Shown here piece by piece: positions 4,364 through 20,670 of a stretch of 22,473 bases of DNA. Where the stretch lies: positions 1-22,473 of IMG/VR virus record IMGVR_UViG_3300032053_014227. The stretch is one strand, 5' to 3'. The translations under genes and the position numbers were made by a program. Positions within the stretch are counted from its first letter, which is position 1, and each line of letters opens with the position of its first letter. The notes below the pieces were generated by a model that was not told the DNA's origin, ran no database searches, and saw only the letters and a program-made list of their open reading frames with translations. The stretch comes from a virus.

Positions 4364-4370
4364 GTTCTTA
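4364..4370 (+). promoter_or_regulatory. GTTCTTA start-proximal motif before primase
   Basis: GTTCTTA lies 7 bases before the primase ATG at 4378, with the intervening bases reading ATATACC. No Shine-Dalgarno sequence is visible. It is one of several GT(A/T)(G/C)TTA copies close to start codons in this window. It also lies in a 15-base divergent gap shared with the small minus-strand gene. Proposed as a -10-like promoter element; not demonstrated. Confidence 0.45.
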
Positions 4371-4377
4371 ATATACC

Positions 4378-5427
4378 ATGAAGATCGGACTGGCGCTGAA
4401 GCAAGAGATCGAGAACACCTTTCAAATGGTGCCGTCTCGGGCCACGTCGGACGAGGTCACCTTCCTCTGCCCGGAGCCCGGCTGCAACGACAAGACCGGC
4501 AACCGCAGCGTCAACCTGAACAACGGCAAGACCAACTGCTGGCGCTGTGGAAAAGGCGGCAACTTCATAGGATGGGCTCGGCGGCTGGGCTACCGTTTTT
4601 CCAACGAGGGAGACCTCTCTGGCGGCGGAAGCATGACGGACTTTGTCGAGACGCCCACGCCAAAGACGCTGCTTCCACCTGTCCAGCCCATCGCGTTGCC
4701 CAAGGGTTACCTGCGGATCGTGGACGAACCTGAATCCGTATACACGCGGCTGATCAAAGCGATGGCTGAGCGCAAAAACCTGACACTGGAGGACTTCATC
4801 GCCGCCAACGTGGGGTTCACGCGGGTTCACCCGGTTTGGGAGTCGTTTGCCATCTTCCCGGTGGTGGAGCGCGGCGTGGTGGTGTACTACCAAGGCCGCA
4901 CCTACATCGACGAAGCGGACAAGCCTACCAAGCGCTTTCCGAACCGGCAGGAACTCAAGTACGGGGCGCGCTACTGGGTCTACAACATCGACGAAGTGCG
5001 CGAGCGCGAACCGGGTATCGTGATCGTGGTCGAGTCGATTTTGAACGTGCTCAGCCTCAAGTGGAAGCTGGCCCAGCTTGGCTGGGACAAGGAGGTGGTG
5101 CCGGTCGCGGTGTTCAAGCACAAGGTCAGCGCGGAGCAGTGGATCAAGCTTACGCGCTGCCGGGGCGTGAAGGAGGTCTGTCTGATGTTTGACCACGATG
5201 CTACGGACAAGGCGTGGGAGTCCAGCTACACGCTGACCAACCGAACTACCCTCACGGTTGCCGAGATGCCCGAAGGCCCGGACAACAAGAAGCTCGATCC
5301 GAATGACGACGTGGAAGAAGCCATCCGCGTGTTTGAATCGCGCAAGTTGTATACGGTAGGTGATGCGCTGGGCCACAAGCTCAAACCCGCCGTCCGCCCA
5401 TCGCTTGTGGGCACCCGCTACGTGTAG
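4378..5427 (+). CDS. DnaG/gp4-type primase: zinc-binding and Toprim domains without helicase
   Basis: 349 residues. A CHC2-like zinc ribbon has C31, C36, C54 and C57 (FLCPEPGC and NCWRCGKGG). A central RNA-polymerase-like region follows (e.g. YYQGRTYIDEADKPTKRF, 170-187). The Toprim core is GIVIVVESILNVLSL (213-227, acidic E219), MFDHDATDKAW (270-280, the DxD pair at D272/D274) and a later KKLDPNDD. This is the layout of bacteriophage primases that make RNA primers at the replication fork. The usual VEG of the first Toprim motif is VES. No helicase domain follows, so the helicase must be encoded elsewhere, unlike T7 gp4. It precedes the GroES-like gene by 18 bases on the same strand. Confidence 0.85.
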   Translation: MKIGLALKQEIENTFQMVPSRATSDEVTFLCPEPGCNDKTGNRSVNLNNGKTNCWRCGKGGNFIGWARRLGYRFSNEGDLSGGGSMTDFVETPTPKTLLPPVQPIALPKGYLRIVDEPESVYTRLIKAMAERKNLTLEDFIAANVGFTRVHPVWESFAIFPVVERGVVVYYQGRTYIDEADKPTKRFPNRQELKYGARYWVYNIDEVREREPGIVIVVESILNVLSLKWKLAQLGWDKEVVPVAVFKHKVSAEQWIKLTRCRGVKEVCLMFDHDATDKAWESSYTLTNRTTLTVAEMPEGPDNKKLDPNDDVEEAIRVFESRKLYTVGDALGHKLKPAVRPSLVGTRYV

Positions 5428-5433
5428 TTTGCC

Positions 5434-5440
5434 GTTCTTA
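5434..5440 (+). promoter_or_regulatory. GTTCTTA start-proximal motif before GroES-like gene
   Basis: GTTCTTA is 5 bases upstream of the ATG at 5446. A second related heptamer, GTAGTTT, begins at 5423 across the upstream stop codon. No purine-rich ribosome-binding site is seen. Confidence 0.45.
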
Positions 5441-5445
5441 GTGGC

Positions 5446-6108
5446 ATGAAGAACTTCAGAGATTGGCAGGTCCGCGTATTCGGCCACCGAGTCATGGTTG
5501 AGCGCGTCACCGAACGGCAGGGCAGCATCATCGTGCCTCAGAGCGCCGACAACCTTTACCAAATCGGACGTGTCGTGTTCGTGGGCAACGGCCAAGACCC
5601 CGAGTTCGTTGTGTCCGCCAGAGGCGCGGGCATTATGCGTGTTCGGCCAGAGCCAAAAGAGTCGCTGGTTGCGGTGGGAGACCTCGTCTACTTCCAGACG
5701 AACATGATCATGGCCGCGCACCAGCAGTACGAGTACGGAACCGAAGCTTACCTCAGTCTCCACCAGACTGAGCTGATTGCGCGGCTGGCGTCCAACGTCG
5801 TCAACTACGACAATTTCGAGCCCTTGGGTGAGTGGGTGCTCGTACAGCCGCACAAGCGCGAACAGGACAGCCGGATTGTCGTGCCTGACACCGTCAAGGC
5901 CGGGGCCTTCATTTACTGGACTCTGGCCAAAAAGAGCGTTGTTTCTCAGTTGAGCGTCCAGCTTGGCCAAGAGATCATGGTCAACACGGGCCGGATCAAC
6001 CCCATTTTCATTCCGACGCTCGACATAGCCACTGCCGAGACCAAGCACACTGAGTTCTCGTACATCTCGTCGGAAAACATCCTTGGCGTCGTGGACGAGG
6101 GTGCATAG
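5446..6108 (+). CDS. Tandem (double) GroES-like co-chaperonin
   Basis: 220 residues, about twice the usual GroES length. Copy one (about 11-114) aligns by eye with GroES: GHRVMVER, then GSIIVPQSAD, GRVVFVGNG (41-49), VAVGDLVYF (75-83) and a closing strand AYLSLHQTELIARL (101-114). Copy two (about 125-218) repeats the order with GEWVLVQPHKRE, SRIVVPDTV, LGQEIMVN (173-180) and EFSYISSENILGVVDE (203-218). GroES-type proteins cap GroEL and assist folding; phage versions such as T4 gp31 replace host GroES for capsid folding. Two linked copies resemble the organisation of plastid Cpn20. Copy two lacks the VGNG-like motif and is more diverged. It follows the primase on the same strand. Confidence 0.82.
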   Translation: MKNFRDWQVRVFGHRVMVERVTERQGSIIVPQSADNLYQIGRVVFVGNGQDPEFVVSARGAGIMRVRPEPKESLVAVGDLVYFQTNMIMAAHQQYEYGTEAYLSLHQTELIARLASNVVNYDNFEPLGEWVLVQPHKREQDSRIVVPDTVKAGAFIYWTLAKKSVVSQLSVQLGQEIMVNTGRINPIFIPTLDIATAETKHTEFSYISSENILGVVDEGA

Positions 6109-6334
6109 TCGGCCTGAGACTACGGGTGGGGCCTACATCGCTGCCGTTCCGTGTCGCGGCCAGCTCCAGTGGTCACGCATTCATTTCCGAAGCTGTCGGG
6201 GCACGGCGATCAGGCGCGAGTGCCCGGTTTGCGGCTACAGGGACTCGTGGAACCCGCAGAGCAAAGCCTTCGAGACCGTTCAGCCTAATCCTTCTCCCGG
6301 CGGCCTTCTAGCGTGGCTGGCGGCCTACCAGTAG
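6101..6334 (+). CDS. Small zinc-ribbon-like hypothetical protein
   Basis: 77 residues from GTG 6101, overlapping the GroES-like gene by 8 bases. It contains C18, C32 and a CPVC pair at 41-44 followed by GYRDSW, a spacing that could bind zinc. The C-terminus is GGLLAWLAAYQ. The frame fills the gap exactly and its TAG stop is embedded in the GTAGTTA motif of the next gene. The start is uncertain: GTG gives the short overlap, and a TTG lies further upstream. Family not recognised; a nucleic-acid or structural zinc role is possible. Confidence 0.5.
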   Translation: MHSRPETTGGAYIAAVPCRGQLQWSRIHFRSCRGTAIRRECPVCGYRDSWNPQSKAFETVQPNPSPGGLLAWLAAYQ

Positions 6335-6337
6335 TTA
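6331..6337 (+). promoter_or_regulatory. GTAGTTA start-proximal motif before giant appendage gene
   Basis: GTAGTTA is 4 bases upstream of the GTG start at 6342 and contains the TAG stop of the upstream gene. The longer string TACCAGTAGTTA is shared exactly with the motif before the fibre gene at 16950. Confidence 0.5.
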
Positions 6338-6341
6338 TGGC

Positions 6342-9300
6342 GTGACGCAAGTCGGAATCAACTGGGACACGCTGACCTACCGGCCCGGCGATACCCTCAA
6401 AGCCAGTATCTTCCTGAGCGACCCGCAGGGGCTGCCTCCTCGCTCTCTGTCGTGGGTTCTTCGCCACAACAACAATACCATTGTGGCCACAGGGGGTGGC
6501 ACCGTTGTCCGCTATGAAAACGCACAGCACGGGGTCTACAGGCTCACGGTGACCGCCGCTGACAGCGCAGGCCAAGGGTCTGCGGCAGAAAGCGCTGTGG
6601 TGGTGTCAGGAGGCGAGGAATCTCGGGTGGCTGTGGTTCCTTTGGGGGTGGGCAGCACGTCGATGTACTTGGGGGCACTGTTCAGTACTGAACAGCGCAC
6701 GGGAGCCGGGTCTTCTCCCGTTTTGCCGTTCCAGATTTCGTCTTCCACGGAAGACATCTATCTCCTGCCCGGCACCACGCATTTCAGCCTCGATCTCGAC
6801 CCGAACCAAGGCGCTGTAGACGACGAAGTGGTCGTCCGTACGAGGCTGGGCAACTGGGCTCTGGTAGGCTTTCCCGCCGGGCTGAACGGCGAAGACATCG
6901 GCTACGACTACACGACGGATCACCCGCTCATTCCGGCACCTGCGGACCTCAAGCTCCGCGTGGCCGTTGACGCCTTCAAGGTGCATGGAAGCTCATTCGC
7001 GTCCTCCAACTTCCGTGTGCGGGTCAAGTGTTGGTGTGCCACAGGGGCGCAGATATGGCAGTACGACCAGTGTGCCTACTCGATGCACCCCGGAGGTGAA
7101 GGTTTGCGCCAGCGGAAGTTTGCTGCGCTCTTCACAGGCGTCGAGCTGGAGACGGATGTGGACGCCCGGCAGGATCGCCTATTTGCGAGCGGGCAGGTGC
7201 TGTACACGACGCCGGACGTAACAACCATACCGGCGGGCGCGCTCGCGCCTACGGGCGCTCCAAACCCGTCAGACAGCGCCACAGGCATGTTTTTCACCGA
7301 CTCCAACGCGTACGCAACGTACGAGTCTGAAGACCATCTGGAGATCGAAGCCAAGGCTGTCGCGGCCATCGAAGGTGTTCGGCCCTTCTACGTCAGCTTC
7401 CAGATGCCGGGCTACCCTTTGATCGTTCAGCGCGTCAAGCGCCTGTACGGCAATCTTGTCGTATACGCGAATGGAGGGCCACTAGACGTGAACGCCGTGG
7501 TGACGATGGACATTTCCACCGGCACAGGCGATAAGCGCTACACCTTTCGGGTGGCCGCCAGAGCTGTTTACAGCCCTGATCCAGACCTTTTCGTGCGGTG
7601 TGGCTCTGTACCGATTGACTTGTCAGACTTTCAGTTTGGCTCCACCGGTATAACGGTAGCCTTTGCGGTCAACTACAGCTACAGCCCTGCGTTTTACCCG
7701 GCCATCAGTGGAACGGGCACTCTGCCTCCCGAGTGGGGGCCGGACAGCATCTACGCGAGCACCTATGGGCGCAGCGTGAAGTACGACGGAGCCTGCTACA
7801 GCAACCCGCAGTCCGTGTCTCTGATTGAAGCCGAAGCGGTTGTGCCTGTTGTGACCTCCAACGGATGCGCCAGTACCGATTGTGGCCCTGTTGGCATCTA
7901 TTGCTACGACGCGGTTGAGGCCCCGGTGGAGAAGGTGACTGTGCCGCAGCCTTACCAACAACCGGCACCGTACATTGCCTTTGGCAGCAACCCAGCGCGC
8001 TGCTTCTACAATCCGGTGCTGACTACTGAATACGGAGGTACGGAATACGACGCGCTGGACATCAGGTCGTATACGGATAGCTCGCTCTGCGGCAAATGGG
8101 GCCGGTACCGCCGCTGCGGCTCTCCGACCACCATTTTGACGGTGGTGTACCCAACTGTGGCCTCACCCCACAGTTTCATCAGCTACGACTCGAAGTGCTA
8201 CCAGTACAACGGCACAACGATTCTCAGCACGGGGTCCACAACTTTCGTTTCGGTAGGCAGCGTGTCTCCCGTGGCCAGTTGCAGCGACGCACTCTGCAAC
8301 GGTTCCAATGCAGCCGGTGAGAGCTACCTCTACAGAGACGCGGAAACCGGGCAGCAGGTCAGCGTGCGTTTTCCACATCTCGACGTTGGCGTTCCGCACT
8401 TTGCTGTCTCGCCTTCCGTCGTGGATAGCGGAGTTTCCGGGCTCTCTGAGGGGAACAGCCGCATCCTGTTTCGTCAGGCAGGCCGTAAGCGCATCAGCAC
8501 CGTCTCCGGCGCGGGTGACCTTCAGTTGGCGTTTGCTTCAGCGGCGGTAGCAAAGTCGGTGCTTGTCTACCGGGGTGGCGCGCTCGTGGCGTCGTACCCA
8601 CTATCGGTCTCAGAGTCTAAGCTTACCATTCCAGTGCTCAGCGGTGACGACCTATGGCTCGACGTGTCGTCGGGAGGCCGAGTTCCAGCTAAGATGGTGG
8701 GTGCCAGCGTCGTCGCAAGTTGGGCACCGGTTGTGCGGCTGCCGCGTGTTTACGATACCGGCACGGTCAGCTCTTCTGGTTCAGTCAAGGCGGTTGGCTT
8801 CTGCGGGCTTACGGACCATCAGTCGTACGTCTTTTTTGGGACGCTGCCTGCCGAGAACATGACCGGGGATGTCGTGAACCCCGACACGCTCGTTACGGTT
8901 CAAGGCTCAGGGTCGCCTGAGTATTGGCTCGTCCGCAGCCGGGCTATTGGTGACCTGACTCCTTCTGCGCCTACAGGAGTCTTTCCCTACGCCGGAGAGA
9001 CTTTGAACAGCCCAATGGTGTTCAAGTTCTACGCGGTTAGAGAAGTCCAAGGAGCCCACGGGGAGTTCGATGTGTGGCTTGGCGCTAACGGCACGTTTCC
9101 GGCACATCTGAAGCTCGACGATTTCCGTGTGATCAGCGCGTCAGGAACGTCTTACCAACGCGACGCGCAGATCGGTGATACCAGTCGTAACAACGTCGTG
9201 GTGACCGGGTCTCCCACGGGTATCAGGCTCCCGCGCATGTTCGTGGCCGACGACGGCCAGCTCATTTCTTCAGACGCGGATGGCGTCACAGAGGCCGCAG

Positions 9301-10292
9301 TGTACATCGGAAACAAGCTCTTCACCTCCACCGGGCAGGTGGACACCGGGCTTTCGAGCCAGATTTACCGGGACTTGGTCAGCTACCCTCCAGTCGTATA
9401 CGAAGGTGCTGTCGCTCAGGCAGGCAATCCCGGCCCGCTGACGATCTGCACAAGCACGAACGAGATTTACGCTTCGGACAACTTCGTCAACCGCGTGCTA
9501 GTCAGTGACGCGACAACGCGGGTGCCCATTGCGAATATCGCAACGTCTGGCCCTGTACACAAGATCGACTACTGTCCGACGACTGACCGGGTTTTTGTGG
9601 TTGATGACACGCCTTTGGGCGGAACCTACTACGTCATCAACCCCCACACGCACGCAGTCGAGTCTACCCACACGGTTTCCCCTGCCGTTACGCTTGTCGA
9701 TGTGCGCTATTGCCCGGACGACGGCTTCATGTACTTGATCGGGTACGGTGTGCCCACCAACAGCGACAATACCTTCTTCCGGGTGGACCCGGTTAGCTAC
9801 GTGTATACATCGTACGCTTCACCGACGACTGGAACCGAGAACGCCCTGCTCTACGTCCCCGATACGCGTGAGATGTGGGGCGTAAGCCACGGCTGGTGCT
9901 TGAACATCGACGACTTTTCCTTCCGCCAATACAGTAACTTCGGAGCTTTTGACGCTGCCTACGGTGACCACAAGGTCTATCTGAAGTTTTACACTCAAAC
10001 GTCAGTGTTTGACCCGGTGCGGGACACGACGCTTTCGGCGGTGAGCCTTACCTATTCCACAGGTGGCGCGGCTTTCCACCCGATCAGGAAGCGCTTTTAC
10101 ACCACAGTTCTCGACGCTTTTGGGTCTTTGGACACGTGGTACACAACGATTACTCCGTACGGGGCGGCAGACAACAGCATTCCGGGTTATCCGGGCAGTC
10201 AGAACTGGTTCGTGTACAACGCGGTCACAAAGAAGGTCATAGGCGGCATGGGTCCGCTTGGATACCCGAGCATTCTGGTGAGCCTGACGTAG
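6342..10292 (+). CDS. Giant phage appendage/adhesin with Cys-rich repeats and C-terminal beta-propeller
   Basis: 1316 residues from GTG 6342; the ATG at 6337 is out of frame and closes at once. Residues ~1-90 look like a PKD or cadherin-like beta-sandwich (SWVLRHNNNTIVATGG, then GVYRLTVTAADSAG). Two similar cysteine motifs follow, one near 480-515 (YDGACY ... GCASTDCGPVG) and one near 613-650 (YDSKCY ... ASCSDALCNG), typical of environmental phage fibre modules. The last ~300 residues (from about 1010) contain repeated strands such as NEIYASDNFVNRVLVSD, KIDYCPTTDRVFVVDD and VRYCPDDGFMYLIG, which look like a YncE/NHL-type beta-propeller. There is no signal peptide or transmembrane segment. It is probably a tail fibre or spike used in host recognition; which domain contacts the receptor is not known. 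Its 3' end overlaps the opposing gene by 56 bases. Confidence 0.75.
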   Translation: MTQVGINWDTLTYRPGDTLKASIFLSDPQGLPPRSLSWVLRHNNNTIVATGGGTVVRYENAQHGVYRLTVTAADSAGQGSAAESAVVVSGGEESRVAVVPLGVGSTSMYLGALFSTEQRTGAGSSPVLPFQISSSTEDIYLLPGTTHFSLDLDPNQGAVDDEVVVRTRLGNWALVGFPAGLNGEDIGYDYTTDHPLIPAPADLKLRVAVDAFKVHGSSFASSNFRVRVKCWCATGAQIWQYDQCAYSMHPGGEGLRQRKFAALFTGVELETDVDARQDRLFASGQVLYTTPDVTTIPAGALAPTGAPNPSDSATGMFFTDSNAYATYESEDHLEIEAKAVAAIEGVRPFYVSFQMPGYPLIVQRVKRLYGNLVVYANGGPLDVNAVVTMDISTGTGDKRYTFRVAARAVYSPDPDLFVRCGSVPIDLSDFQFGSTGITVAFAVNYSYSPAFYPAISGTGTLPPEWGPDSIYASTYGRSVKYDGACYSNPQSVSLIEAEAVVPVVTSNGCASTDCGPVGIYCYDAVEAPVEKVTVPQPYQQPAPYIAFGSNPARCFYNPVLTTEYGGTEYDALDIRSYTDSSLCGKWGRYRRCGSPTTILTVVYPTVASPHSFISYDSKCYQYNGTTILSTGSTTFVSVGSVSPVASCSDALCNGSNAAGESYLYRDAETGQQVSVRFPHLDVGVPHFAVSPSVVDSGVSGLSEGNSRILFRQAGRKRISTVSGAGDLQLAFASAAVAKSVLVYRGGALVASYPLSVSESKLTIPVLSGDDLWLDVSSGGRVPAKMVGASVVASWAPVVRLPRVYDTGTVSSSGSVKAVGFCGLTDHQSYVFFGTLPAENMTGDVVNPDTLVTVQGSGSPEYWLVRSRAIGDLTPSAPTGVFPYAGETLNSPMVFKFYAVREVQGAHGEFDVWLGANGTFPAHLKLDDFRVISASGTSYQRDAQIGDTSRNNVVVTGSPTGIRLPRMFVADDGQLISSDADGVTEAAVYIGNKLFTSTGQVDTGLSSQIYRDLVSYPPVVYEGAVAQAGNPGPLTICTSTNEIYASDNFVNRVLVSDATTRVPIANIATSGPVHKIDYCPTTDRVFVVDDTPLGGTYYVINPHTHAVESTHTVSPAVTLVDVRYCPDDGFMYLIGYGVPTNSDNTFFRVDPVSYVYTSYASPTTGTENALLYVPDTREMWGVSHGWCLNIDDFSFRQYSNFGAFDAAYGDHKVYLKFYTQTSVFDPVRDTTLSAVSLTYSTGGAAFHPIRKRFYTTVLDAFGSLDTWYTTITPYGAADNSIPGYPGSQNWFVYNAVTKKVIGGMGPLGYPSILVSLT

Positions 10293-10827
10293 TCGGCCCG
10301 AGCTGCTGGTGGAGCACCTGCTGAAGCGTGGGGTTCGTGTCGGCCATCATCTGGATGACGCCCATTACTTGCGCGATCACGTAGTTTTGAACGTTGGAGG
10401 TGTTGTCCGGCACTTCGACGTACACGGGTGGACCGCTGAACTGTCTTGAGCAGACCACCTGCACAACCATGTCGCTCCTGATTGTTTCACCGAGGATTTT
10501 CACCGTGGCACTGCGCGCCGCGAACTTCTTCTCGTAGCGGTAGCCGACGTGGGAAGTCACATACGCAATTAGGCGTGGGTCGCGGATCGAGACGTCGAAC
10601 ATGAACCCGGAGTGCTCAAAGCTGATGGCGTTGCTGGAGTTCTCGATGGCGTTGCAGCGGAAGCCATGCCGGACGAAGAACTCGTCCAGACGGCGTAGAG
10701 CGCTCACGCACGCGCTGTAGCGGTTTTCGGGGGCTGTCAGGGGCTGCGGCGGCTGCTGCGGCGGCTCCCACTTGACGACTTCGCCTCCCGGCCCGGCTAT
10801 GAACCCAATTTGCTTCTGCGCGCCCAT
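10237..10827 (-). CDS. Hypothetical phage protein
   Basis: 196 residues from ATG 10827. A longer open frame extends upstream through the intrinsic terminator and the neighbouring gene, but that extension is compositionally shadow-like, so the ATG is preferred. The protein has a proline/glutamine stretch (WEPPQQPPQPLTAPE, about 20-34) followed by a mixed alpha/beta region, including FFVRHGFRCNAIENSS and YVEVPDNTSNVQNYVIAQVM. No family is recognised. The start follows a GTTCTAC heptamer by 5 bases. The 3' end overlaps the appendage gene on the other strand. Confidence 0.6.
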   Translation of the reverse strand: MGAQKQIGFIAGPGGEVVKWEPPQQPPQPLTAPENRYSACVSALRRLDEFFVRHGFRCNAIENSSNAISFEHSGFMFDVSIRDPRLIAYVTSHVGYRYEKKFAARSATVKILGETIRSDMVVQVVCSRQFSGPPVYVEVPDNTSNVQNYVIAQVMGVIQMMADTNPTLQQVLHQQLGPTTSGSPECSGIQADPCRL

Positions 10828-10839
10828 GTTGAGTAGAAC

Positions 10840-10865
10840 AAAAAGGCCGCCCACGAAGGGCGGCC
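10840..10865 (-). terminator. Rho-independent terminator of the 10889-11383 gene
   Basis: On the minus strand an 8-bp perfect stem (GGCCGCCC paired with GGGCGGCC, loop TTCGT) is followed directly by TTTTT. It begins 23 bases beyond the stop of the upstream gene. The T tract ends 12 bases before the ATG of the next gene, so that gene needs its own promoter or readthrough. Confidence 0.85.
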
Positions 10866-10888
10866 TCTGATCTTGATGGCAGGCGAGC

Positions 10889-11383
10889 TTAGACGGTGAT
10901 GCCACCGGGGTTGATGATACCCGCGCCTGCGTTGGTGATGCCGCCGCTCGTGGTGGTCGGGCCGCCGACAGAGCCCCACTTCTTCTGGAGTTCAGCCTTG
11001 TTGAACGCGTCATCGTAGCCCCAGCCCTTGCGGCCCGAGGCGACAATGTCGATCTGCGCGTTGCGCAGGTCGGCCTTGTTGCGGATGACCGCCGAGACGT
11101 TGACGGTGGTGCTGCCGGAACCGAAGAACGCCACCCGCTTGTTGAGCAGGACGTAGCTCTTGGTGATGGAGCCACCGGGGGCAACGGTAAAGGCCGCTCC
11201 GACGAGAGCGAACCCTGACGGGCTGGACGTGCCGTCGTACTGCATCAGCTTGATGTACGCCTGATTCGGCCCGGTGTTCTCGAACACGAAGTCGATGTTG
11301 CCGAGCTTGTCGTTGGCGGACTGGGCATACGCAGCGAAGACTGTCGCGTCTGTTCCAAATCCAACGCTTGATAGTTGATTCAT
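10889..11383 (-). CDS. Small beta-rich structural-type protein
   Basis: 164 residues from ATG 11383; an in-frame GTG at 11419 would add 12 residues. The body is beta-rich and serine/glycine-rich (KLGNIDFVFENTGPNQAYIK, then GGSITKSYVLLNKRVAFFGSG) and ends in a glycine/threonine-rich tail (GGPTTTSGGITNAGAGIINP). Composition and a strong terminator just downstream suggest a highly expressed virion protein, possibly a head decoration or tail component; this is inference. No known fold is recognised. Confidence 0.65.
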   Translation of the reverse strand: MNQLSSVGFGTDATVFAAYAQSANDKLGNIDFVFENTGPNQAYIKLMQYDGTSSPSGFALVGAAFTVAPGGSITKSYVLLNKRVAFFGSGSTTVNVSAVIRNKADLRNAQIDIVASGRKGWGYDDAFNKAELQKKWGSVGGPTTTSGGITNAGAGIINPGGITV

Positions 11384-11496
11384 ACTTTTGACTGTGGTTT
11401 CTGTTGCTGCCAGCCGCACGACTGGCGTTCACCCGTAACCACGTAATGCGCACCTTCCGCGCCTACGGCAGTTGGTGCCCGATTGTCTTAGATGTA

Positions 11497-12546
11497 TCAC
11501 GTTTCGCCTCTGGCCAAGCTGAGCCCGATTTCCAAAAGCTCCTGTTCAGCGATCTCGATGCCCTGTTCGCTCGGCGGCAACCGCGTCATGTAGCGCTGCA
11601 TGGCTCCTTCGAGTGACCAGCCAGACTCCGCCAACGTTCCACTACCGCCTTCAGCTCCGACTGTTTCGTAGGCATAGACAGCCTCGAAGCGGTTCGAGTA
11701 CGGCAGCGCAAACCACTCTTCGGTCTCGGCGTGGTTGGCGAGGGTCACCCTCCAGCGGTCTTCACTCGCAGGATCAAAACCTGCTTTGAACCCTGCGAGC
11801 GTGCTGTTTATGTATACGGGAAAGGCCCCCGTCGCCACCCACTCGACGGACAGGCTGTCGAGGTCCACGAGGGCCACGCGCTTAGCCTCGTCCGCCTCGC
11901 CCCAATTCTGTTGGAACGGCGAGCCGACATAGTGTATACGGGACGTGAAGCTCTGCGGTTTGTGAATGTGGCCGAGCAGCGCAAGGTCGAAGCGCTTGAT
12001 GATTTCAAACGGAACTCCGGTTACGGCGGGGCCAGAGTTTAGAGCCGACCCTACAATCTGGAAGTGACCGAAGAGAACCTTGGTAAACTTCCGGTACTTC
12101 ATCGTCTGCGTGTCGAGCCACCGGGCGAGCTTATCGTGGTCGTTGTCTTCCGGGTACGACACGAAGAAGAGGACTCTGTTGCCGCCGTGCTGCACGATCT
12201 GGTTGTGCAGCACGTTGAACCTGCCGCTGAACATTCGGCCCACGTCTACTGAAGCGTTACGGAGGTATTGCTCGTGGTTGCCTATGATCTTGAAGTTCGT
12301 GTCCAAGACTGGAAAGGGCTCCAGCCCGGCTATGACGGCGTCGATGACGGGCACGGGTATGGCTGTCCGGTCGTCAGTTGTGTCGCCAAGGTCTACGAGG
12401 CCAGCGCACGCATTTTGAGTGAAAACGCTGTACAGGTCGCGGTAGAACTTCCTGACGCGAAAAAGCTGGAGCGGCGTGTTCGGGTCGTTGAAACAGCGCT
12501 CGTCGCCGTCTGTGGCTTGGAGGTCCGCGTATACGAGTAGTTTCAT
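11497..12546 (-). CDS. SbcD/Mre11-like metallophosphoesterase (T4 gp47-type nuclease)
   Basis: 349 residues. Calcineurin-type phosphoesterase motifs are in order: YADLQ (residues 6-10), LGDTTDDR (53-60), GNHE (89-92), LFGHFQ (158-163) and LLGHIHKP (190-197). This is the Mre11/SbcD arrangement, which with an SbcC/Rad50 partner processes DNA ends during phage recombination and replication. Motif I is normally DxH; here it is D8-L-Q10, so one metal-binding histidine is replaced by glutamine. The partner ATPase is not in the window. The start is preceded by TAAAGT then seven bases, compatible with a promoter -10 close to the ATG; no Shine-Dalgarno sequence is seen. Confidence 0.82.
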   Translation of the reverse strand: MKLLVYADLQATDGDERCFNDPNTPLQLFRVRKFYRDLYSVFTQNACAGLVDLGDTTDDRTAIPVPVIDAVIAGLEPFPVLDTNFKIIGNHEQYLRNASVDVGRMFSGRFNVLHNQIVQHGGNRVLFFVSYPEDNDHDKLARWLDTQTMKYRKFTKVLFGHFQIVGSALNSGPAVTGVPFEIIKRFDLALLGHIHKPQSFTSRIHYVGSPFQQNWGEADEAKRVALVDLDSLSVEWVATGAFPVYINSTLAGFKAGFDPASEDRWRVTLANHAETEEWFALPYSNRFEAVYAYETVGAEGGSGTLAESGWSLEGAMQRYMTRLPPSEQGIEIAEQELLEIGLSLARGET

Positions 12547-12586
12547 AGTTTACACTTTAGGCTGACAGCGCTATGCCGGTGGCGTG

Positions 12587-12751
12587 ATGCAGTTCATCCC
12601 ACATAGAACGCAGCGGTTTCTAACCTTGGGCGATCTGGTCTCCGTGATCTACGGCAACTTGCCGAAGCCTTCAGCGCGAAAGTTCCTTCAAGCGCTGGCT
12701 GACGCAGGGCGTATTCGCATGAGCGGAGTCAAGGTCTGCATAGGAGGTTGA
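12587..12751 (+). CDS. Small winged-helix-like hypothetical protein
   Basis: 54 residues (begins MQFIPHRTQRFLTLGDLV, ends AGRIRMSGVKVCIGG). It was found by reading the gap and is shorter than usual ORF cut-offs. The pattern LGDLVSVIYGNLPKPSARKF followed by LQALADAGRIRM resembles a short helix-turn-helix with a small beta hairpin, as in phage transcription adaptors, but similarity is weak. A GTG three bases upstream is an alternative start. It lies divergently from the nuclease gene, with 40 bases between them. Confidence 0.4.
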   Translation: MQFIPHRTQRFLTLGDLVSVIYGNLPKPSARKFLQALADAGRIRMSGVKVCIGG

Positions 12752-12823
12752 AAATCAAGCGTATTTGGTGCGACTACCCCTTTGGGCGCAGATTTGGTTC
12801 TACTTGGTGTGGAACTTAGTTTG

Positions 12824-13024
12824 ATGATAAAGCTGTACTCGCTCGCGATCAACGGCAAGCCCGTGTGTTCCGTCAGCGCCGAAGTTCCGCCGTGGCTGCC
12901 TGTTCAGCCCCACCTGAATCGGGTGTGGTTGCGGGGTCTGATACAGCAGGTGCTGTCCTCCCATTTCCGCTCACGTAGTTACTGGTGTGATGACCGAAGC
13001 CCATCTAGCCCGTGTCTTAATTGA
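12824..13024 (+). CDS. Possible small hypothetical protein
   Basis: 66 residues from ATG 12824, preceded by TTAGTTTG. The sequence MIKLYSLAINGKPVCSVSAEVP looks like a plausible beta-hairpin start, but the last residues overlap the next gene by 35 bases in another frame and look like shadow sequence. It is the only reasonable frame in the 12752-12989 gap. No family is recognised. Confidence 0.35.
   Translation: MIKLYSLAINGKPVCSVSAEVPPWLPVQPHLNRVWLRGLIQQVLSSHFRSRSYWCDDRSPSSPCLN
12975..12981 (+). promoter_or_regulatory. GTAGTTA start-proximal motif
   Basis: GTAGTTA is 5 bases before GTG 12987 and 8 before ATG 12990, the alternative starts of the next gene. The surrounding DNA has no Shine-Dalgarno sequence. 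Confidence 0.45.
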
Positions 13025-13349
13025 CGAGGCCGGGGACGCCGAGATCGACCCGAAGATCAAAGTGCTGATGACCCGCATCATGCACCAGATACACTCGGTT
13101 CCGTCCTTGGAGACTTTTCTCGTCGATGCCGGTGTGGTCCCTATGGACAATGGCGGCGCGGACATCCAGCTCGACTTTCTCCGCCTGCCTGAAGAGGTTG
13201 TTCCCCAGATCGAGCGTCTGCTGACGGCTGATTTCTTCCGGCAGCACAGGTGGACCAAGTACGTGAAAAATGGCCAAGCGCACATGGGCTTTCAGTTGAT
13301 TCTGCGGCCCGATGACTTGCCCGGCGACGCGTACGACTACGCGTACTGA
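12990..13349 (+). CDS. Hypothetical protein
   Basis: 119 residues from ATG 12990; GTG 12987 directly before is also possible. The protein is mixed alpha/beta and soluble (MTEAHLARVLIDEAGD, then LPEEVVPQIERLLTADFF) with an acidic C-terminus ending DAYDYAY. It is preceded by a GTAGTTA motif. Its stop overlaps the next start (TGATG), so the two genes are probably co-translated. No family is recognised. Confidence 0.6.
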   Translation: MTEAHLARVLIDEAGDAEIDPKIKVLMTRIMHQIHSVPSLETFLVDAGVVPMDNGGADIQLDFLRLPEEVVPQIERLLTADFFRQHRWTKYVKNGQAHMGFQLILRPDDLPGDAYDYAY

Positions 13350-13663
13350 TGCCTTCTGAAGTCGCCAAAAAAGTTGCGGGCACCTTCATTGCCGACCCCG
13401 GTGAGCCGAAGACGCCCGTGTTTGCGTGGTTGCAGAGCGAGTGCCGCGCAGGGTGCTTCGCTCACACAGTCAAGGCGTGGTGCAAAGAGCAGGCGGAACC
13501 TCTCGATCCCGCCTTACTCATCGTGGACGCAATCAGCTCAAACGGTATACAGGGCCACGTTCCCTGCCGCATAGCTGATCATGAGGCCACGAGCACGTTC
13601 TTGACCGAAGTCGCCTTCGTGCTCAACCCCAAGACCTCAATCGTTCTTCGGGCTGACCTCTAG
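13349..13663 (+). CDS. Hypothetical protein, coupled to upstream gene
   Basis: 104 residues starting in the TGATG overlap. It has four cysteines (ECRAGC, AWCKE, VPCR), but no recognisable zinc motif, and a beta-rich C-terminus (TEVAFVLNPKTSIVLRADL). Its 3' end overlaps the opposing ribbon-helix-helix candidate by 27 bases. Function unknown. Confidence 0.55.
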   Translation: MPSEVAKKVAGTFIADPGEPKTPVFAWLQSECRAGCFAHTVKAWCKEQAEPLDPALLIVDAISSNGIQGHVPCRIADHEATSTFLTEVAFVLNPKTSIVLRADL

Positions 13664-13867
13664 GTTTTCGTTTGCGTGCTCGGGGTTTTTGTACTCCAGT
13701 CGCCCGGCGAGGTAGTCGAGCACGACTTTTCGGCAAAGCAGGCGCATCGTGCGCACCCCACGCGGCGGGTTGTCGTCGTGGAGCTTCTTGAGGGCTTTTT
13801 CGTGCTGCGGGCTGACGCGGAACGACAGCACCACGGTTTTTACGGCGGAGCCTTTCTTTTTTGGCAT
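13637..13867 (-). CDS. Ribbon-helix-helix-like DNA-binding protein (candidate regulator)
   Basis: 76 residues. A basic N-terminus (MPKKKGSAVK) leads into a strand and two helices, VVLSFRVSPQHEKALKKL (12-29) then GVRTMRLLCRKVVLDYL, consistent with a short ribbon-helix-helix DNA-binding fold as found in Arc/MetJ-type regulators. The tail is acidic. It is transcribed divergently from the portal gene across 62 bases that contain an inverted repeat (13885-13898) and a motif on each strand, so auto-repression or control of the structural operon is plausible. This is inferred; no relative was identified with certainty. Confidence 0.5.
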   Translation of the reverse strand: MPKKKGSAVKTVVLSFRVSPQHEKALKKLHDDNPPRGVRTMRLLCRKVVLDYLAGRLEYKNPEHANENLEVSPKND

Positions 13868-13873
13868 ATACGG

Positions 13874-13880
13874 TAAGAAC
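13874..13880 (-). promoter_or_regulatory. GTTCTTA start-proximal motif (minus strand)
   Basis: On the minus strand GTTCTTA is 6 bases upstream of the ATG at 13867. The same heptamer precedes the primase and GroES-like genes on the plus strand. Confidence 0.45.
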
Positions 13881-13884
13881 GGGA

Positions 13885-13898
13885 ATCCGTGGACGGAT
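13885..13898. promoter_or_regulatory. Inverted repeat in divergent intergenic region, possible operator
   Basis: ATCCGT, then GG, then ACGGAT: a perfect 6-bp inverted repeat between the divergent ribbon-helix-helix candidate and the portal gene. It sits between the two start-proximal motifs, a suitable place for an operator. Short repeats of this size can occur by chance. Confidence 0.35.
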
Positions 13899-13918
13899 AC
13901 CCCGTGTTTTGGTTCTTG

Positions 13919-13925
13919 GTAGTTA
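13919..13925 (+). promoter_or_regulatory. GTAGTTA start-proximal motif before portal gene
   Basis: GTAGTTA is 4 bases upstream of ATG 13930, in true intergenic DNA (no overlapping stop codon). A TTGGTTCTTG string lies just before it; a near-identical string occurs upstream of the fibre gene. Confidence 0.5.
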
Positions 13926-13929
13926 ACGT

Positions 13930-15849
13930 ATGGCGACGAACACCGCAGCGACCAGCCTGTTCAAGTACCTCGGCCTCACCGGAAGCTCCGGGGTGCGCAC
14001 GGGTTCTCTCGTTCCACGAGCGGGCACTGCCGACGCGGAGCAGCGTCTTTGGCAGGAGTTTCAGGACGCGGGCCGGGTAGCTGACCCGGACATTTGGACA
14101 CGGTTCAACACCGTGATGAAGCGCCCGACGACGTTCGAGGCGATGCTCCAGTTGTGGGACGAGATGAGCCAGTGGGACTTGATCGCGGCAGCGCTGGTTG
14201 AAATCACGGATGAGGCCACCCAGTCGGACGCCAACTCGCCGGGCACGCTCTGGTACCAGTGCAACGATCAGGACTTTGAGGAGGAGCTGAACGACATGCT
14301 CCAGCGGCTGGACGTGGAGTCTATCCTGCCCTCGCAGGTCTGGCATCTTGCGTCGCTGGGCAACCACTTTGAAAAGCTGGAGTACGCGCCGGTAGAGGGC
14401 GTACTCGGCATGAGCTTTGTCCACCCTATGGACATGCGGCGCTATTGGCTGGAGCGCAACCGCAAGTGCATAGGGTTCAGGTGGCACGGGCACAAGCCCA
14501 ACAAGGAGGACGTGTTCGTGATGCCGGACAACGAGACCCCGGTCGAGCGGGTCTCCATGACGGCTAACCAGAACATCGAAGACCTGTGGTACCCGTGGGA
14601 CTTTCTGCACTTTCGGCGGATGTTCCGCATGAGGATCAGTGAGCACGGCGAGCCGGTGTTTGCCGAGGCTGACGGCATCTACAAAAAGCTGCGCATGGCC
14701 GTGGACCAGATGGTGGTCCACCGGGCACAGGTCCAGCCTGTGCGCTACGCCATCAACGTGGACGTGCAGGAGCAGCCGCCCATCGAGCAGATGAAGACCA
14801 TTCAGCGCTGGCGGCAGACGCTGCGGTCCAAGATGGCTTTCGGTCAAACGGGCGCGCCCAACGAGTTCAATGCGGCCACGGACTTTCAGAGCTTCTACAA
14901 CGCATGGGCGCTCGACACGATCATCTACCTTGCCCAGCCCAAGGGGTTCAACAACACGATCCAGCAGTTGAACGGCACCCAGCAGGTGCCTGACGTATAC
15001 GACATCGAGCTTCTGACCGATCTCTTCTACTCCATCATCGGAATGCCCCGGTCGTGGTTCGGCAGCCAGCGCGATGAGGGCGGCAACGCTCCATCGGGCA
15101 AGGCCCTCTTGGCGCAAGACATCCGGTTCCTGCGCAAGATCAAGTCGATCCGCCGCCCGATCATCAACCAGTACACGTGGCTGGGCTATTTCCATGCGAT
15201 TCTCAAGGGCATGTCTGTGGAGACGCTGGACATCAAGGCCATGATGTCGCCCATTGGCTCGCTCGAAGAGCAGATGAAGATGGAGCTGCTCAAGATGCAA
15301 GCCGAGACGTTGCAGGTTCTCGGCGACGTGATGGAGCAGTACAGCCTGCCCAAAGAAGCGTGGATCGAGGTCATTTTCAAGCGGTACATGCACCTCCCCG
15401 ACGATGTGGTTCACGTTTTTCTGACGGCCCTACCAGCGGAGGTTGGAGCCGAGCAACAGTCGGAGAGCAAGAAAACAAACGCACCGTATACATTCAAGAT
15501 AATTCGTCAGATTGAGGAGAAATTGGCAAAAACTCCGGGTGCGCTGGAGCTGATTGGCCAGTTGAAGGAGGCCGTATACGGCGAAGAGCCACGTGCGCGC
15601 AAGGTCGGCAAGAAGCGCACCGTGCAAGAGTTTGTGGCCATGCCCTCCGTCAAGGAGCGCGACGTGGTCATCTCCAGCTTTGGGCGGCACCCGCTGGAGC
15701 TGGGTCGGTCTACCGGCGGGGCATCGACGACCAAGGCGAACCTGATGGACTCGGTCCAAGCGCCTCAAGGGGCTGAGCCCCCGCGCCCAATCACCGAGGC
15801 CATGAACGGCAACGGCTGGGAGCAGTACCGAAAATGGGTTAAGGTCTAA
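13930..15849 (+). CDS. Phage portal protein, T4 gp20-like
   Basis: 639 residues. Typical portal features include LWDEMSQWDLIAAALVEITD in the N-terminal third, the central QPVRYAINVDVQEQPP, then the conserved ELLTDLFYSIIGMPRSWFGS (from about residue 360) followed by SGKALLAQDIRFLRKIKSIR. This last block matches the gp20 segment where the helical core lies near the DNA channel. Portals form a dodecameric ring at one capsid vertex, docking the terminase and then the tail. It is longer than T4 gp20, with a low-complexity C-terminal ~120 residues. Its stop overlaps the gp25-like gene (TAATG), so it heads a structural operon. A 524-codon antisense frame beneath it is treated as a shadow. Confidence 0.85.
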   Translation: MATNTAATSLFKYLGLTGSSGVRTGSLVPRAGTADAEQRLWQEFQDAGRVADPDIWTRFNTVMKRPTTFEAMLQLWDEMSQWDLIAAALVEITDEATQSDANSPGTLWYQCNDQDFEEELNDMLQRLDVESILPSQVWHLASLGNHFEKLEYAPVEGVLGMSFVHPMDMRRYWLERNRKCIGFRWHGHKPNKEDVFVMPDNETPVERVSMTANQNIEDLWYPWDFLHFRRMFRMRISEHGEPVFAEADGIYKKLRMAVDQMVVHRAQVQPVRYAINVDVQEQPPIEQMKTIQRWRQTLRSKMAFGQTGAPNEFNAATDFQSFYNAWALDTIIYLAQPKGFNNTIQQLNGTQQVPDVYDIELLTDLFYSIIGMPRSWFGSQRDEGGNAPSGKALLAQDIRFLRKIKSIRRPIINQYTWLGYFHAILKGMSVETLDIKAMMSPIGSLEEQMKMELLKMQAETLQVLGDVMEQYSLPKEAWIEVIFKRYMHLPDDVVHVFLTALPAEVGAEQQSESKKTNAPYTFKIIRQIEEKLAKTPGALELIGQLKEAVYGEEPRARKVGKKRTVQEFVAMPSVKERDVVISSFGRHPLELGRSTGGASTTKANLMDSVQAPQGAEPPRPITEAMNGNGWEQYRKWVKV

Positions 15850-16583
15850 TGATCATCGTCACCGATTACAGCGGAGTTGACCTGTCCCAAAACCCGCCTG
15901 CGGACCAAACGCTGACGGCGGGCGGGGCTGGGGTCTCGTTTGCCATTCAGGCCAAGATCACCGAGACCGATACGATGCTGCCATTTCAGTTTCTTTCTGG
16001 AACTGTGGACTGGCGCGACGGTTCGCCGCCCACAGTTCTTTCGGGCAATGGCACGATCACGGTGGACCTTCAGCACACGTACCAGCCCGGCCAGTACGTC
16101 GTTTCAGTATACGCGCACGACTATGCCTCTCCTGCGCCCAGTGAAGCACAGGTCAACTTTTTGGTCTCAGTCGAGGCAAGCACGCTCATCGCGCAGCCGA
16201 GCAGGTTCGTGTACGGGCCTATCTTGCCACGTGATAGCGGCTTCCCCGGCCCGCAGGACTGGCTTTTCAACTCGTCGAGCGACATCTTCATTCTGGAATC
16301 TTCGGTGAGGATGCTGCTCAGCACCACCAAGGGCGAGCGGATTATGGAGCCGGACTACGGAACCCAAATCGTCCGCATTCTCTTTGAGACCAATGCCCAG
16401 AGTATCGAGCCCTTGATCCAGCAGGAGATCGTGGAGGCTATCGCGAGGTGGGAGCCTCGGGTTGAGCTTCAGAGCCTTGTCATTGAGCGTGATCCCAATA
16501 ACCGCAGCGTCACCGTTACGCCCACGTTCTTATCCAAGTTGAGCCAGCGTGGTTTTCAAACGACGCTCCAGTTCACGCCATAG
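15849..16583 (+). CDS. PKD-like domain fused to gp25-like baseplate wedge protein
   Basis: 244 residues, nearly twice the usual gp25. Residues ~20-108 look like a PKD beta-sandwich (GTVDWRDGSPP at 51-61, then LQHTYQPGQYVVSVYAHD at 74-91). Residues ~145-244 are the gp25/gpW-like fold with GERIMEPDYG (162-171) and WEPRVEL (201-207), which includes the conserved EPR core motif. gp25 is a component of the wedge complex in contractile tails and is related to type VI secretion TssE; it sits at the sheath-baseplate interface. The added PKD domain may place an exposed beta domain on the baseplate. It is coupled to the portal gene by TAATG. Confidence 0.82.
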   Translation: MIIVTDYSGVDLSQNPPADQTLTAGGAGVSFAIQAKITETDTMLPFQFLSGTVDWRDGSPPTVLSGNGTITVDLQHTYQPGQYVVSVYAHDYASPAPSEAQVNFLVSVEASTLIAQPSRFVYGPILPRDSGFPGPQDWLFNSSSDIFILESSVRMLLSTTKGERIMEPDYGTQIVRILFETNAQSIEPLIQQEIVEAIARWEPRVELQSLVIERDPNNRSVTVTPTFLSKLSQRGFQTTLQFTP

Positions 16584-16584
16584 C

Positions 16585-16944
16585 ATGACGGAAGTAACGC
16601 AGACAGTTAATCGGCGAGAGTTCATCGCCAAGTTCATGCGCGACTGCGGGGTGACCTACAGTCAGGCGTGCCGCATTTACGAAAGCATGGTCTCGGTGTT
16701 CGAGGATGGCGTAGTCAGCGGCTCGAAGATCAGGGTAGGCCGGGTCGGAGCGCTGATTCCAGTTTGGCGGAAGCCCCGAGAAGTGACGATGCACTTCCGC
16801 GTGGAAAAGGGTGGTCGTGTGAAGAAGACGCGGCGCACCTACACGCTGGACGGCAGGTTCGTCTTCAAGTTCAACCTCTATCGCCGATTCGTCGATACCC
16901 ACAATCTCAGGTGGTTCTTGGACTTTGGCGGTACCAGTAGTTAA
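16585..16944 (+). CDS. HU/IHF-like DNA-binding protein
   Basis: 119 residues from ATG 16585, one base after the upstream stop; a longer in-frame start at 16549 would overlap gp25 and is not preferred. The N-terminus VNRREFIAKFMRDCGVTYSQA resembles the HU helix pair, followed by FEDGVVSGSKIRVGRVGALIPV (the body strands) and an arginine/lysine-rich arm region (EKGGRVKKTRRTYTLDGRF). HU-type proteins bend DNA; divergent phage and bacterial versions also occur. Its location between baseplate and fibre genes is unusual. It could have been recruited as a virion component. Alternative: an unrelated small structural protein, as the match is from pattern reading only. Confidence 0.55.
   Translation: MTEVTQTVNRREFIAKFMRDCGVTYSQACRIYESMVSVFEDGVVSGSKIRVGRVGALIPVWRKPREVTMHFRVEKGGRVKKTRRTYTLDGRFVFKFNLYRRFVDTHNLRWFLDFGGTSS
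16937..16943 (+). promoter_or_regulatory. GTAGTTA start-proximal motif before fibre gene
   Basis: GTAGTTA is 6 bases upstream of ATG 16950, in the longer shared string TACCAGTAGTTA. It overlaps the end of the HU-like gene, but that gene's stop is TAA, so the motif is not explained by a TAG stop. Confidence 0.5.
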
Positions 16945-16949
16945 AGCGT

Positions 16950-18254
16950 ATGGCCATAAAACCACTTGAACTGCCGACTTCCGCCGGGCTGGCGTACGGC
17001 CAAGGCGATGTTCGGCACTTGGCTGAAGGTGACGACCTGTCCGTTCCGTCGGTTTCAAATCCGACGCGACAGCTTGCCGAGCGCGACAACCTCCTCCAGC
17101 AAAAGCTCAACGAGGCTATCGCCGTCATCAACAACACGGAGCAGTTTGCGCCTTTGCCGGTGGTTCGTACCACGCTGCCGCCAAACGACGAGACGGTCGT
17201 CATCAACTACCGTATACCGGCTGGTTTTGAGTCCCGCGTGCTCAACGCGAGCATCGCGTCTACGCCTTCGAGCACGGACATTGAACTCAACGTCTACTAC
17301 AACACGGGTTTTGGAGGCTCGACCGGTACGGCTATCGTTACGACCTCAACGGAGTTCGCCGGAGGCGTCCAGTTTTACCAAAGCGGCGAGTTCATTGTCT
17401 CGCTGAAGAACAAGGGTGCGATCACGCTCGACTTGGTGGCCTCTGTGCTGCTGACGATTCGCCCTCTAGGCGCGCAGGGCACACTGCTCGTTGGCAGCGT
17501 CATCTCAGGTGAGCAGGGGCCTCCGGGTGTAGCCGGGCCTCCGGGGCCTCCGGGGCCTACGGGCTCAGGCGGGGCGGGTTCCCCCGGCATGGTCTGGACT
17601 GGCGCGTGGGACATCACGAAGGCGTACAACCCAAACGACGTGGTCTCCTACACGACGTATGGCACGGTGGTCTCGTCCTACATCTGCCGCGCTGGCAATA
17701 CCGGCGTTGATCCCACAAGCACAGCAATCATTTGGAATCCTGTGGCGCTTGCTGGGGGCCTTGGCGCACCCGGCCCGACTGGGCCATCAGGCGGCAGCGT
17801 GGTGTTCAGCGCCAGCGAGATCAGCGTAAATGGCGTGCTGACGGCGGGGACTCCGTTCACTGGTGGCGTGTCTCCACAAAACGCAGAGTACACGAGCGGA
17901 GCTGTGACGGCTCCGGGCAACACGGCCAACGTGCCCCTGCATGAATCATTCTTCGGGCTGCCTAGCGGCACACCCAAAGGCATCACCGTGTTGAGCGGCG
18001 CGATACGCACTTACTTCTGCGGGTTCGGTACGCTGACGCTCCCCAAGATTATAGGCGGAGCACAGGTTGACTACAGCAACAGCGCGATCAGCTTGACGGT
18101 GTGCGCCAACGGCACAAGCCTGACTGCGCCGATGAGCCAGCAGTGGAGACCTGTTGAGTACCGAAAGAACTCGACGGATCAGTACTTGGTGATCGTGAAC
18201 TCACCCAACCCTGTGCCGATCCTCGCCGTCGTTAACGGGGCTCAGGTGGTCTGA
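16950..18254 (+). CDS. Tail fibre protein with collagen-like segment and carbohydrate-binding-type module
   Basis: 434 residues. An N-terminal region includes a coiled-coil-like stretch (ERDNLLQQKLNEAIAVINN, near 44-62) and a beta-rich domain. A Gly-X-Y run at residues 187-213 begins GEQGPPGVAGPPGPPGP and a shorter GAPGPTGPSG lies further on. Between them is a WTGAWDITKAYNPNDVVSY module (about 216-266), like the short carbohydrate-binding or chitin-binding-type repeats often found next to collagen segments in phage fibres. The C-terminus is beta-rich. It is probably a trimeric fibre that contacts the host surface. The gene is preceded by the shared GTAGTTA motif and its 3' end overlaps the opposing gene by 13 bases. 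Confidence 0.75.
   Translation: MAIKPLELPTSAGLAYGQGDVRHLAEGDDLSVPSVSNPTRQLAERDNLLQQKLNEAIAVINNTEQFAPLPVVRTTLPPNDETVVINYRIPAGFESRVLNASIASTPSSTDIELNVYYNTGFGGSTGTAIVTTSTEFAGGVQFYQSGEFIVSLKNKGAITLDLVASVLLTIRPLGAQGTLLVGSVISGEQGPPGVAGPPGPPGPTGSGGAGSPGMVWTGAWDITKAYNPNDVVSYTTYGTVVSSYICRAGNTGVDPTSTAIIWNPVALAGGLGAPGPTGPSGGSVVFSASEISVNGVLTAGTPFTGGVSPQNAEYTSGAVTAPGNTANVPLHESFFGLPSGTPKGITVLSGAIRTYFCGFGTLTLPKIIGGAQVDYSNSAISLTVCANGTSLTAPMSQQWRPVEYRKNSTDQYLVIVNSPNPVPILAVVNGAQVV
17508..17588 (+). repeat. Collagen-like Gly-X-Y repeat in fibre gene
   Basis: Twenty-seven codons encode eight Gly-X-Y triplets and a final SPG, with GPP the commonest triplet. At the DNA level this is a short GGGCCTCC-type direct repeat. 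Such segments form triple helices and commonly vary in length between related phages. Confidence 0.85.
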
Positions 18255-20663: not shown

Positions 20664-20670
20664 TAACTAC
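20664..20670 (-). promoter_or_regulatory. GTAGTTA motif upstream of acidic protein gene
   Basis: On the minus strand GTAGTTA is 20 bases upstream of the ATG at 20643, leaving room for a short leader. The 62-base divergent gap (20644-20705) also holds GTTCTAT on the plus strand at 20656-20662, facing the GT9-like gene. Confidence 0.4.

Follow-up and report, generated by a model that had tools for sequence, protein, structure and literature searches.

Late promoters of phage T4 have the consensus TATAAATA, are read by the sigma factor gp55 and depend on the sliding clamp gp45 and the co-activator gp33. RNA synthesis usually begins at a pyrimidine-purine (YR) step. Leaderless genes occur in many bacterial groups (PMC3160421), and in Deinococcus the -10 motifs located 6-7 bp before open reading frames (ORFs) have been validated as leaderless promoters (PMC12340547). 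Among phages, Thermus phage phiYS40 produces leaderless middle and late mRNAs, a conclusion that has an experimental basis (PMC3594737).

The window analysed here is a 22.5-kb IMG/VR fragment (22,473 nucleotides) from a T4-related phage that carries portal, baseplate wedge, SbcD-like and primase-like genes. Genes in this fragment and in its relatives are preceded by two classes of short motif, defined as class A, (G)TA[G/T/A/C]TTA or (G)TAnTTA, and class B, GTTCT(T/A). The arrangement parallels that of leaderless genes in Deinococcus-Thermus and other bacteria in that an element resides a few bases before the start, no Shine-Dalgarno sequence is present and the mRNA lacks a leader, although this last feature is only predicted for the phages. 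Moreover, the sigma70-type promoters of these phages (TACACT or TACAGT 6-8 bases before ATG) look like their bacterial leaderless counterparts, whereas classes A (TAnTTA) and B (GTTCT) do not have the TANNNT form and are sorted by gene function. Deinococcus leaderless promoters, at 6-7 bases (PMC12340547), also lie further from the start than class A, which has a modal spacer of 4 bases.

Class A resembles the late promoters of T4 in having a short -10-type element without conserved sequence further upstream and in heading virion genes, but its consensus is (G)TAnTTA rather than TATAAATA and its RNA is predicted to start at the start codon. The sigma-like phage protein described below is weakly similar to the gp55 family, but a pairwise profile comparison found no direct similarity to T4 gp55. 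Phage phiYS40 likewise has leaderless middle and late transcripts, but it belongs to a different phage group, and our own proposal is based on sequence only. No phage with an equivalent arrangement turned up in the limited set of papers searched. What would be new is a pair of phage-specific, function-sorted leaderless promoter classes in T4-related phages, together with a candidate sigma factor.

The initial annotation of the window described a single recurring motif, GT(A/T)(G/C)TTA, and named eight copies, all of which are present at the positions and distances that it gave (Table 1). Two of these were said to share the longer TACCAGTAGTTA, which indeed occurs exactly twice. On both strands together, GTWSTTA is found 11 times (4.0 +/- 2.2 in shuffled sequences). 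Seven of these copies lie 4-8 bases upstream of starts, where 0.05 would be expected, and the probability of finding seven of 11 within 3-10 bases of a start is about 6e-15 for the window. The copies at 7225-7219 minus, at 9194-9188 minus and, inside a gene, at 16526 plus precede no start and look like chance occurrences. It is uncertain whether the copy at 20664..20670 is a promoter element, as it is beyond the usual distance and lacks the YR step. The enrichment before starts thus holds, but a single motif merges two separate signals, TAnTTA and GTTCT, and the list of copies was incomplete because the GTTCT at 10839-10835 minus had been overlooked.

Table 1. Motif copies, terminator and associated genes in the window. 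Gaps are in bases between motif and start codon.
Feature	Position	Strand	Details
Class B GTTCTTA	4364..4370	+	Gap 7 to primase-like gene at 4378
Class B GTTCTTA	5434..5440	+	Gap 5 to GroES-like gene at 5446
Class A GTAGTTA	6331..6337	+	Gap 4 to GTG start of 6342-10292
Intrinsic terminator	10842..10868	-	T run directly into class B element 10835..10839
Class B GTTCT	10835..10839	-	7 bases upstream of ATG at 10827
Class A GTAGTTA	12975..12981	+	Gap 5 or 8; small conserved gene starts at 12987 or 12990
Class B GTTCTTA	13874..13880	-	Gap 6 to 76-aa gene starting at 13867 minus
Class A GTAGTTA	13919..13925	+	Gap 4 to portal gene at 13930
Class A GTAGTTA (TACCAGTAGTTA)	16937..16943	+	Gap 6 to tail-fibre-like gene at 16950
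GTAGTTA	20664..20670	-	20 bases upstream of 20643 minus
DNA primase-like gene (class B)	4378..5427	+	PHROG 47, 4.9e-23
GroES-like co-chaperonin gene (class B)	5446..6108	+	PHROG 3188, 2.1e-6
1316-aa gene, function unknown (class A)	6342..10292	+	No PHROG match
Gene, function unknown (class B)	10237..10827	-	Own gene calls
Portal gene (class A)	13930..15849	+	PHROG 213, 5.2e-11
Tail-fibre-like gene (class A)	16950..18254	+	PHROG 5073, 6.1e-13

For three class A copies in the window, the predicted RNA start (marked by a caret) falls on or close to the start codon: on the G of GTG for the 6342 gene (TAGTTA-TGGC^GTG), on the A of ATG for the portal gene (TAGTTA-ACGT^ATG) and at 16948 for the tail-fibre-like gene (TAGTTA-AAGC^GTATG). 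The YR step is absent from its usual place at the 12975..12981 element. In the class B element at 5434, GTTCT is followed by the modal 7 bases and a C precedes the ATG. An additional GTTCT is located at 13912-13916, near the class A element of the portal gene. The start of the 10237..10827 minus gene was revised to 10827, and its orthologue in the related contig G005 has the identical terminator-GTTCT-ATG arrangement. Other window genes also retain their motifs: class A precedes the orthologues of the 6342-10292 gene in all three contigs G001, G003 and G005, class B is found in six of six orthologues of the 76-aa gene, and most closer relatives likewise have GTAGTTA ahead of their portal gene. 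As a separate observation, the hexamer GTATAC is strongly over-represented in the window (24 places from 251 to 21860, versus 1.4 in shuffles), is also frequent in G005 (106 versus 46), and is absent from contigs G007 and G011.

A search with the portal protein identified 47 related loci. The discovery set comprised the window and seven large related contigs (42-211 kb, 47-61% G+C), for which our own trained script called 881 usable genes, window included; gene starts are likewise our own calls. Class definitions were fitted on this set before they were applied to a hold-out set of 14 further loci (277 genes) that were not used in discovery.

Within the last 22 bases before starts, GTAGTTA was observed 74 times (1.2 expected), GTTCTTA 26 times (0.8), GTATTTA 21 times (0.4) and GTAATTA 11 times (0.2). 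Class A precedes 132 of the 881 genes and class B precedes 99, with both present at only 6, whereas random positions carry class A in 0.24% and class B in 0.96% of cases. The modal distance to the start is 4 bases for class A and, counted after GTTCT, 7 bases for class B. In the hold-out loci, 26 genes have class A and 20 have class B. Enrichment upstream of starts, the genome-wide check proposed for the motif, thus amounts to tens of fold and is repeated in loci that had no part in its definition. As had also been claimed, genes internal to operons, whose starts overlap the preceding gene, mostly lack the motif (present in 4% of overlapping genes in the discovery set and in none of 67 in the hold-out set). 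No conserved -35 or other upstream position was found in class A alignments. The reported lack of Shine-Dalgarno sequences was borne out at all 23 called genes of the window, and Shine-Dalgarno sequences are near background overall (7% versus 3%); they occur together with a motif at only 2 of 881 genes, where 11.5 would be expected.

These genes meet one criterion for leaderless genes in that a promoter-type element lies no more than about 12 bases from the start codon. Another such criterion, TANNNT at 6-7 bases upstream of the start, is not fitted by classes A and B but is fitted by a separate third set. Two-element sigma70-like promoters (e.g. TTGACA-N17-TACGAT) peak 6-8 bases upstream of starts, with 14 at this peak versus about 0.3 expected. 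The contig G010 has in addition 19 TTTCCA-N15/16-GTAT(T/C)CT promoters, 13 of them at 5-7 bases upstream of starts, and none was found in the other contigs. When these are included in a wider two-element set, 30 of 31 start codons directly follow a pyrimidine.

The two motif classes are associated with different gene sets. Named class A matches across all contigs are mostly to tail fibre, portal, baseplate, head-tail adaptor and tail sheath proteins, and those of class B are to GroES, SbcC, SbcD, helicases, DNA polymerase, Holliday-junction resolvases and primase. In G005, for example, class A precedes head-tail adaptor and tail fibre genes, and class B precedes genes for DNA polymerase, helicases, a DnaB-like helicase and SbcC. 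Virion exceptions within class B are a baseplate hub family (6 members) and terminase (2). As judged by these homology matches, class A is shown to precede mainly virion genes and class B mainly replication, recombination and chaperone genes. Class membership is also kept between orthologues, as reciprocal best pairs between contigs comprise 69 A-A and 66 B-B pairs but only 6 A-B pairs (135 concordant versus 6 discordant).

We propose that the motifs are core promoter elements in a clade of large T4-related phages, in which transcription would begin with the start codon's first base or a few bases upstream. Class A, (G)TAnTTA-N3-Y^R, where R is the predicted first base of the RNA, would head mainly virion genes, and class B, GTTCT(T/A), would head mainly replication, recombination and chaperone genes. 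Two-element sigma70-type promoters, in which the -10 element lies 6-8 bases upstream of the start, would form a third set, and operon-internal genes would be reached via read-through and overlapping starts. Class A would most likely be read by host RNA polymerase carrying a conserved phage sigma-like factor of ~336 aa, and the reader of class B is unknown. We consider it likely that these are two leaderless or near-leaderless phage promoter classes, the first of which is probably read by the ~336-aa factor. We also lean towards the fuller proposal that host-type, replication and virion promoters are all leaderless, or nearly so, with this sigma factor serving the virion class and an unknown factor, of whatever kind, serving GTTCT. 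The leaderless state of the mRNAs, the timing of expression and the assignment of the factor to class A are all inferred from sequence, without mapped transcripts.

A phage sigma factor had been suggested in the initial annotation, and a sigma-like gene is indeed found in related contigs (G005, G008, G010 and G011) and in 19 IMG/VR loci, some of them on the same contigs, but it is absent from the window fragment. The encoded ~336-aa protein matches PHROG 234, the family of the T4 late sigma factor gp55 (8.4e-5 in G005), and its C-terminus matches PHROG 836, a late transcriptional activator (down to 4e-6). The structure predicted for this protein (pLDDT 74.7, pTM 0.36) can be superimposed on region 2 of E. 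coli sigmaE on -10 DNA over 91 of 91 residues (2.2 A, Z 11.2). The structure tool cautions that, with helical folds, a Z below about 13 may lack specificity; a search with the model returned sigma factors only among the PDB matches listed, and for this modelled protein the uniformity of that list is a stronger argument for a sigma fold than Z. Direct pairwise profile comparison of the sigma-like alignment with T4 gp55 gave no match, and we therefore call the protein sigma-like rather than a gp55 orthologue. A sequence search of solved structures with the same alignment and a six-frame search for Pfam region 2 also gave no match. Two other candidates were rejected: Sigma70_r4 matches in G005 are in fact small helix-turn-helix proteins rather than full sigma factors, and no beta-subunit match was found that would indicate a phage multisubunit RNA polymerase. 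In G008, the gene for the ~336-aa protein is itself preceded by a class B site, which suggests an expression order of host-type, then class B, then class A promoters that is plausible but unproved.

An alternative sigma factor of the host could also read leaderless promoters of this kind, as could a host polymerase modified by other phage proteins, without involvement of the ~336-aa protein. The host is unknown, and the protein has been assigned on the basis of co-occurrence and fold only. Moreover, neither class was found in the stretches examined of two hold-out loci, L116 and L127, though both carry the sigma-like gene; these loci may use an altered promoter sequence. Nevertheless, we regard such a reader as unlikely, given that motif and sigma-like gene are conserved over contigs of 47-61% G+C, presumably from different hosts, and that two additional sigma factors (PHROG 351, at 114354-115079 and 137138-137872) are encoded in G010, the only contig in which another promoter type was found. 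A Flavobacteriales host was considered because of a metagenome-assembled genome, but only one contig so binned has a portal-protein relative, and this link is not relied on because Bacteroidota promoters are not of the TTGACA/TANNNT type. Within G005 (locus L100, G005 99500-101500), tRNA-Met and tmRNA genes are located at 470-546 and 736-1153, and the tmRNA (Rfam, 6.9e-50) could be a pointer to the host. In G010 (locus L071, G010 20001-40000), ARAGORN identifies at 9006-9079 a tRNA with anticodon CTA, called tRNA-Pyl, which is possibly an amber suppressor.

For class B, GTTCT, rather than being a -10 element, might bind an activator or repressor of the phage at a site overlapping the transcription start. 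GTTCT and its complement AGAAC are sometimes palindromic between divergent genes, as in GTTCTTAGAAC, and the distance to the start is less fixed than in class A, with no clearly fixed YR step at longer spacers. This possibility appears distinctly doubtful, as GTTCT favours one distance and one strand, start codons at the modal distance follow a pyrimidine in 37 of 41 cases (9 of 9 in the hold-out set), and no separate sigma70-like -10 element was found beside it.

The initial annotation had favoured a -10-type promoter that yields leaderless mRNA and had named as its alternative a new ribosome-recognition site, which would replace the Shine-Dalgarno sequence on mRNAs with ordinary leaders. The position of the motif 4-10 bases before starts, as for a Shine-Dalgarno sequence, would suit a ribosome site, as would the near-background frequency of Shine-Dalgarno sequences and the presence of the motif upstream of same-strand genes with gaps of 1-40 bases, where it is more frequent than at gaps above 40 bases. 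What separates the two possibilities is the YR step. All 64 class A start codons at spacer 4 directly follow a pyrimidine (13 of 13 in the hold-out set), and 20 of the 24 GTG starts of this class are found at that spacer. At spacers of 6-10 bases, the YR step remains at +4/+5 after TAnTTA in 36 of 49 cases, versus 124 of 343 control sites (36%; p about 1e-6), and it is present at 37 of 51 GTAGTTA copies away from called starts, although several of these precede a start missed by the gene caller. The step is thus tied to the motif and not to the start codon, which favours a promoter and disfavours a ribosome site.

Gene layout also supports the promoter interpretation. In the window, the terminator at 10868-10842 minus runs straight into the motif, with GTTCTACTCAACATG following, and terminators likewise abut the motif at G005 174618 minus, G001 16900 and G010 115939 minus, which leaves no space for another promoter. 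Divergent genes only 27-42 bp apart can each have their own motif in that space, overlapping genes nearly lack the motif, and the two-element promoters stand at about the same distance from start codons. A ribosome site would further have to accommodate a motif class that tracks gene function and a motif that is missing from most genes, and no phage bS21 was found that might serve as an alternative reader. It accounts for the data much less well than a -10 promoter element and is very unlikely. The sequence GTAGTTAAGACAGC was also noted at G005 150650, G001 18025 and G003 2180 with no start codon in the usual place, and may represent a class A promoter that gives a slightly longer leader or drives a small RNA. 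Finally, despite the shortness of the motif and its post hoc choice, a chance pattern selected by eye is refuted by the tens-fold enrichment, the hold-out replication and the conservation of class between orthologues.

In a widespread group of uncultured phages, many transcription units thus appear to begin at the start codon. If this is true, promoter choice would be tied to the translation start, within the dozen bases before the start codon, and promoters, gene starts and expression classes could be read directly from metagenomic sequence. These phages would also offer a clean family for the study of promoter choice by phage sigma factors, and their hosts would be predicted to have ribosomes that accept leaderless mRNA well.
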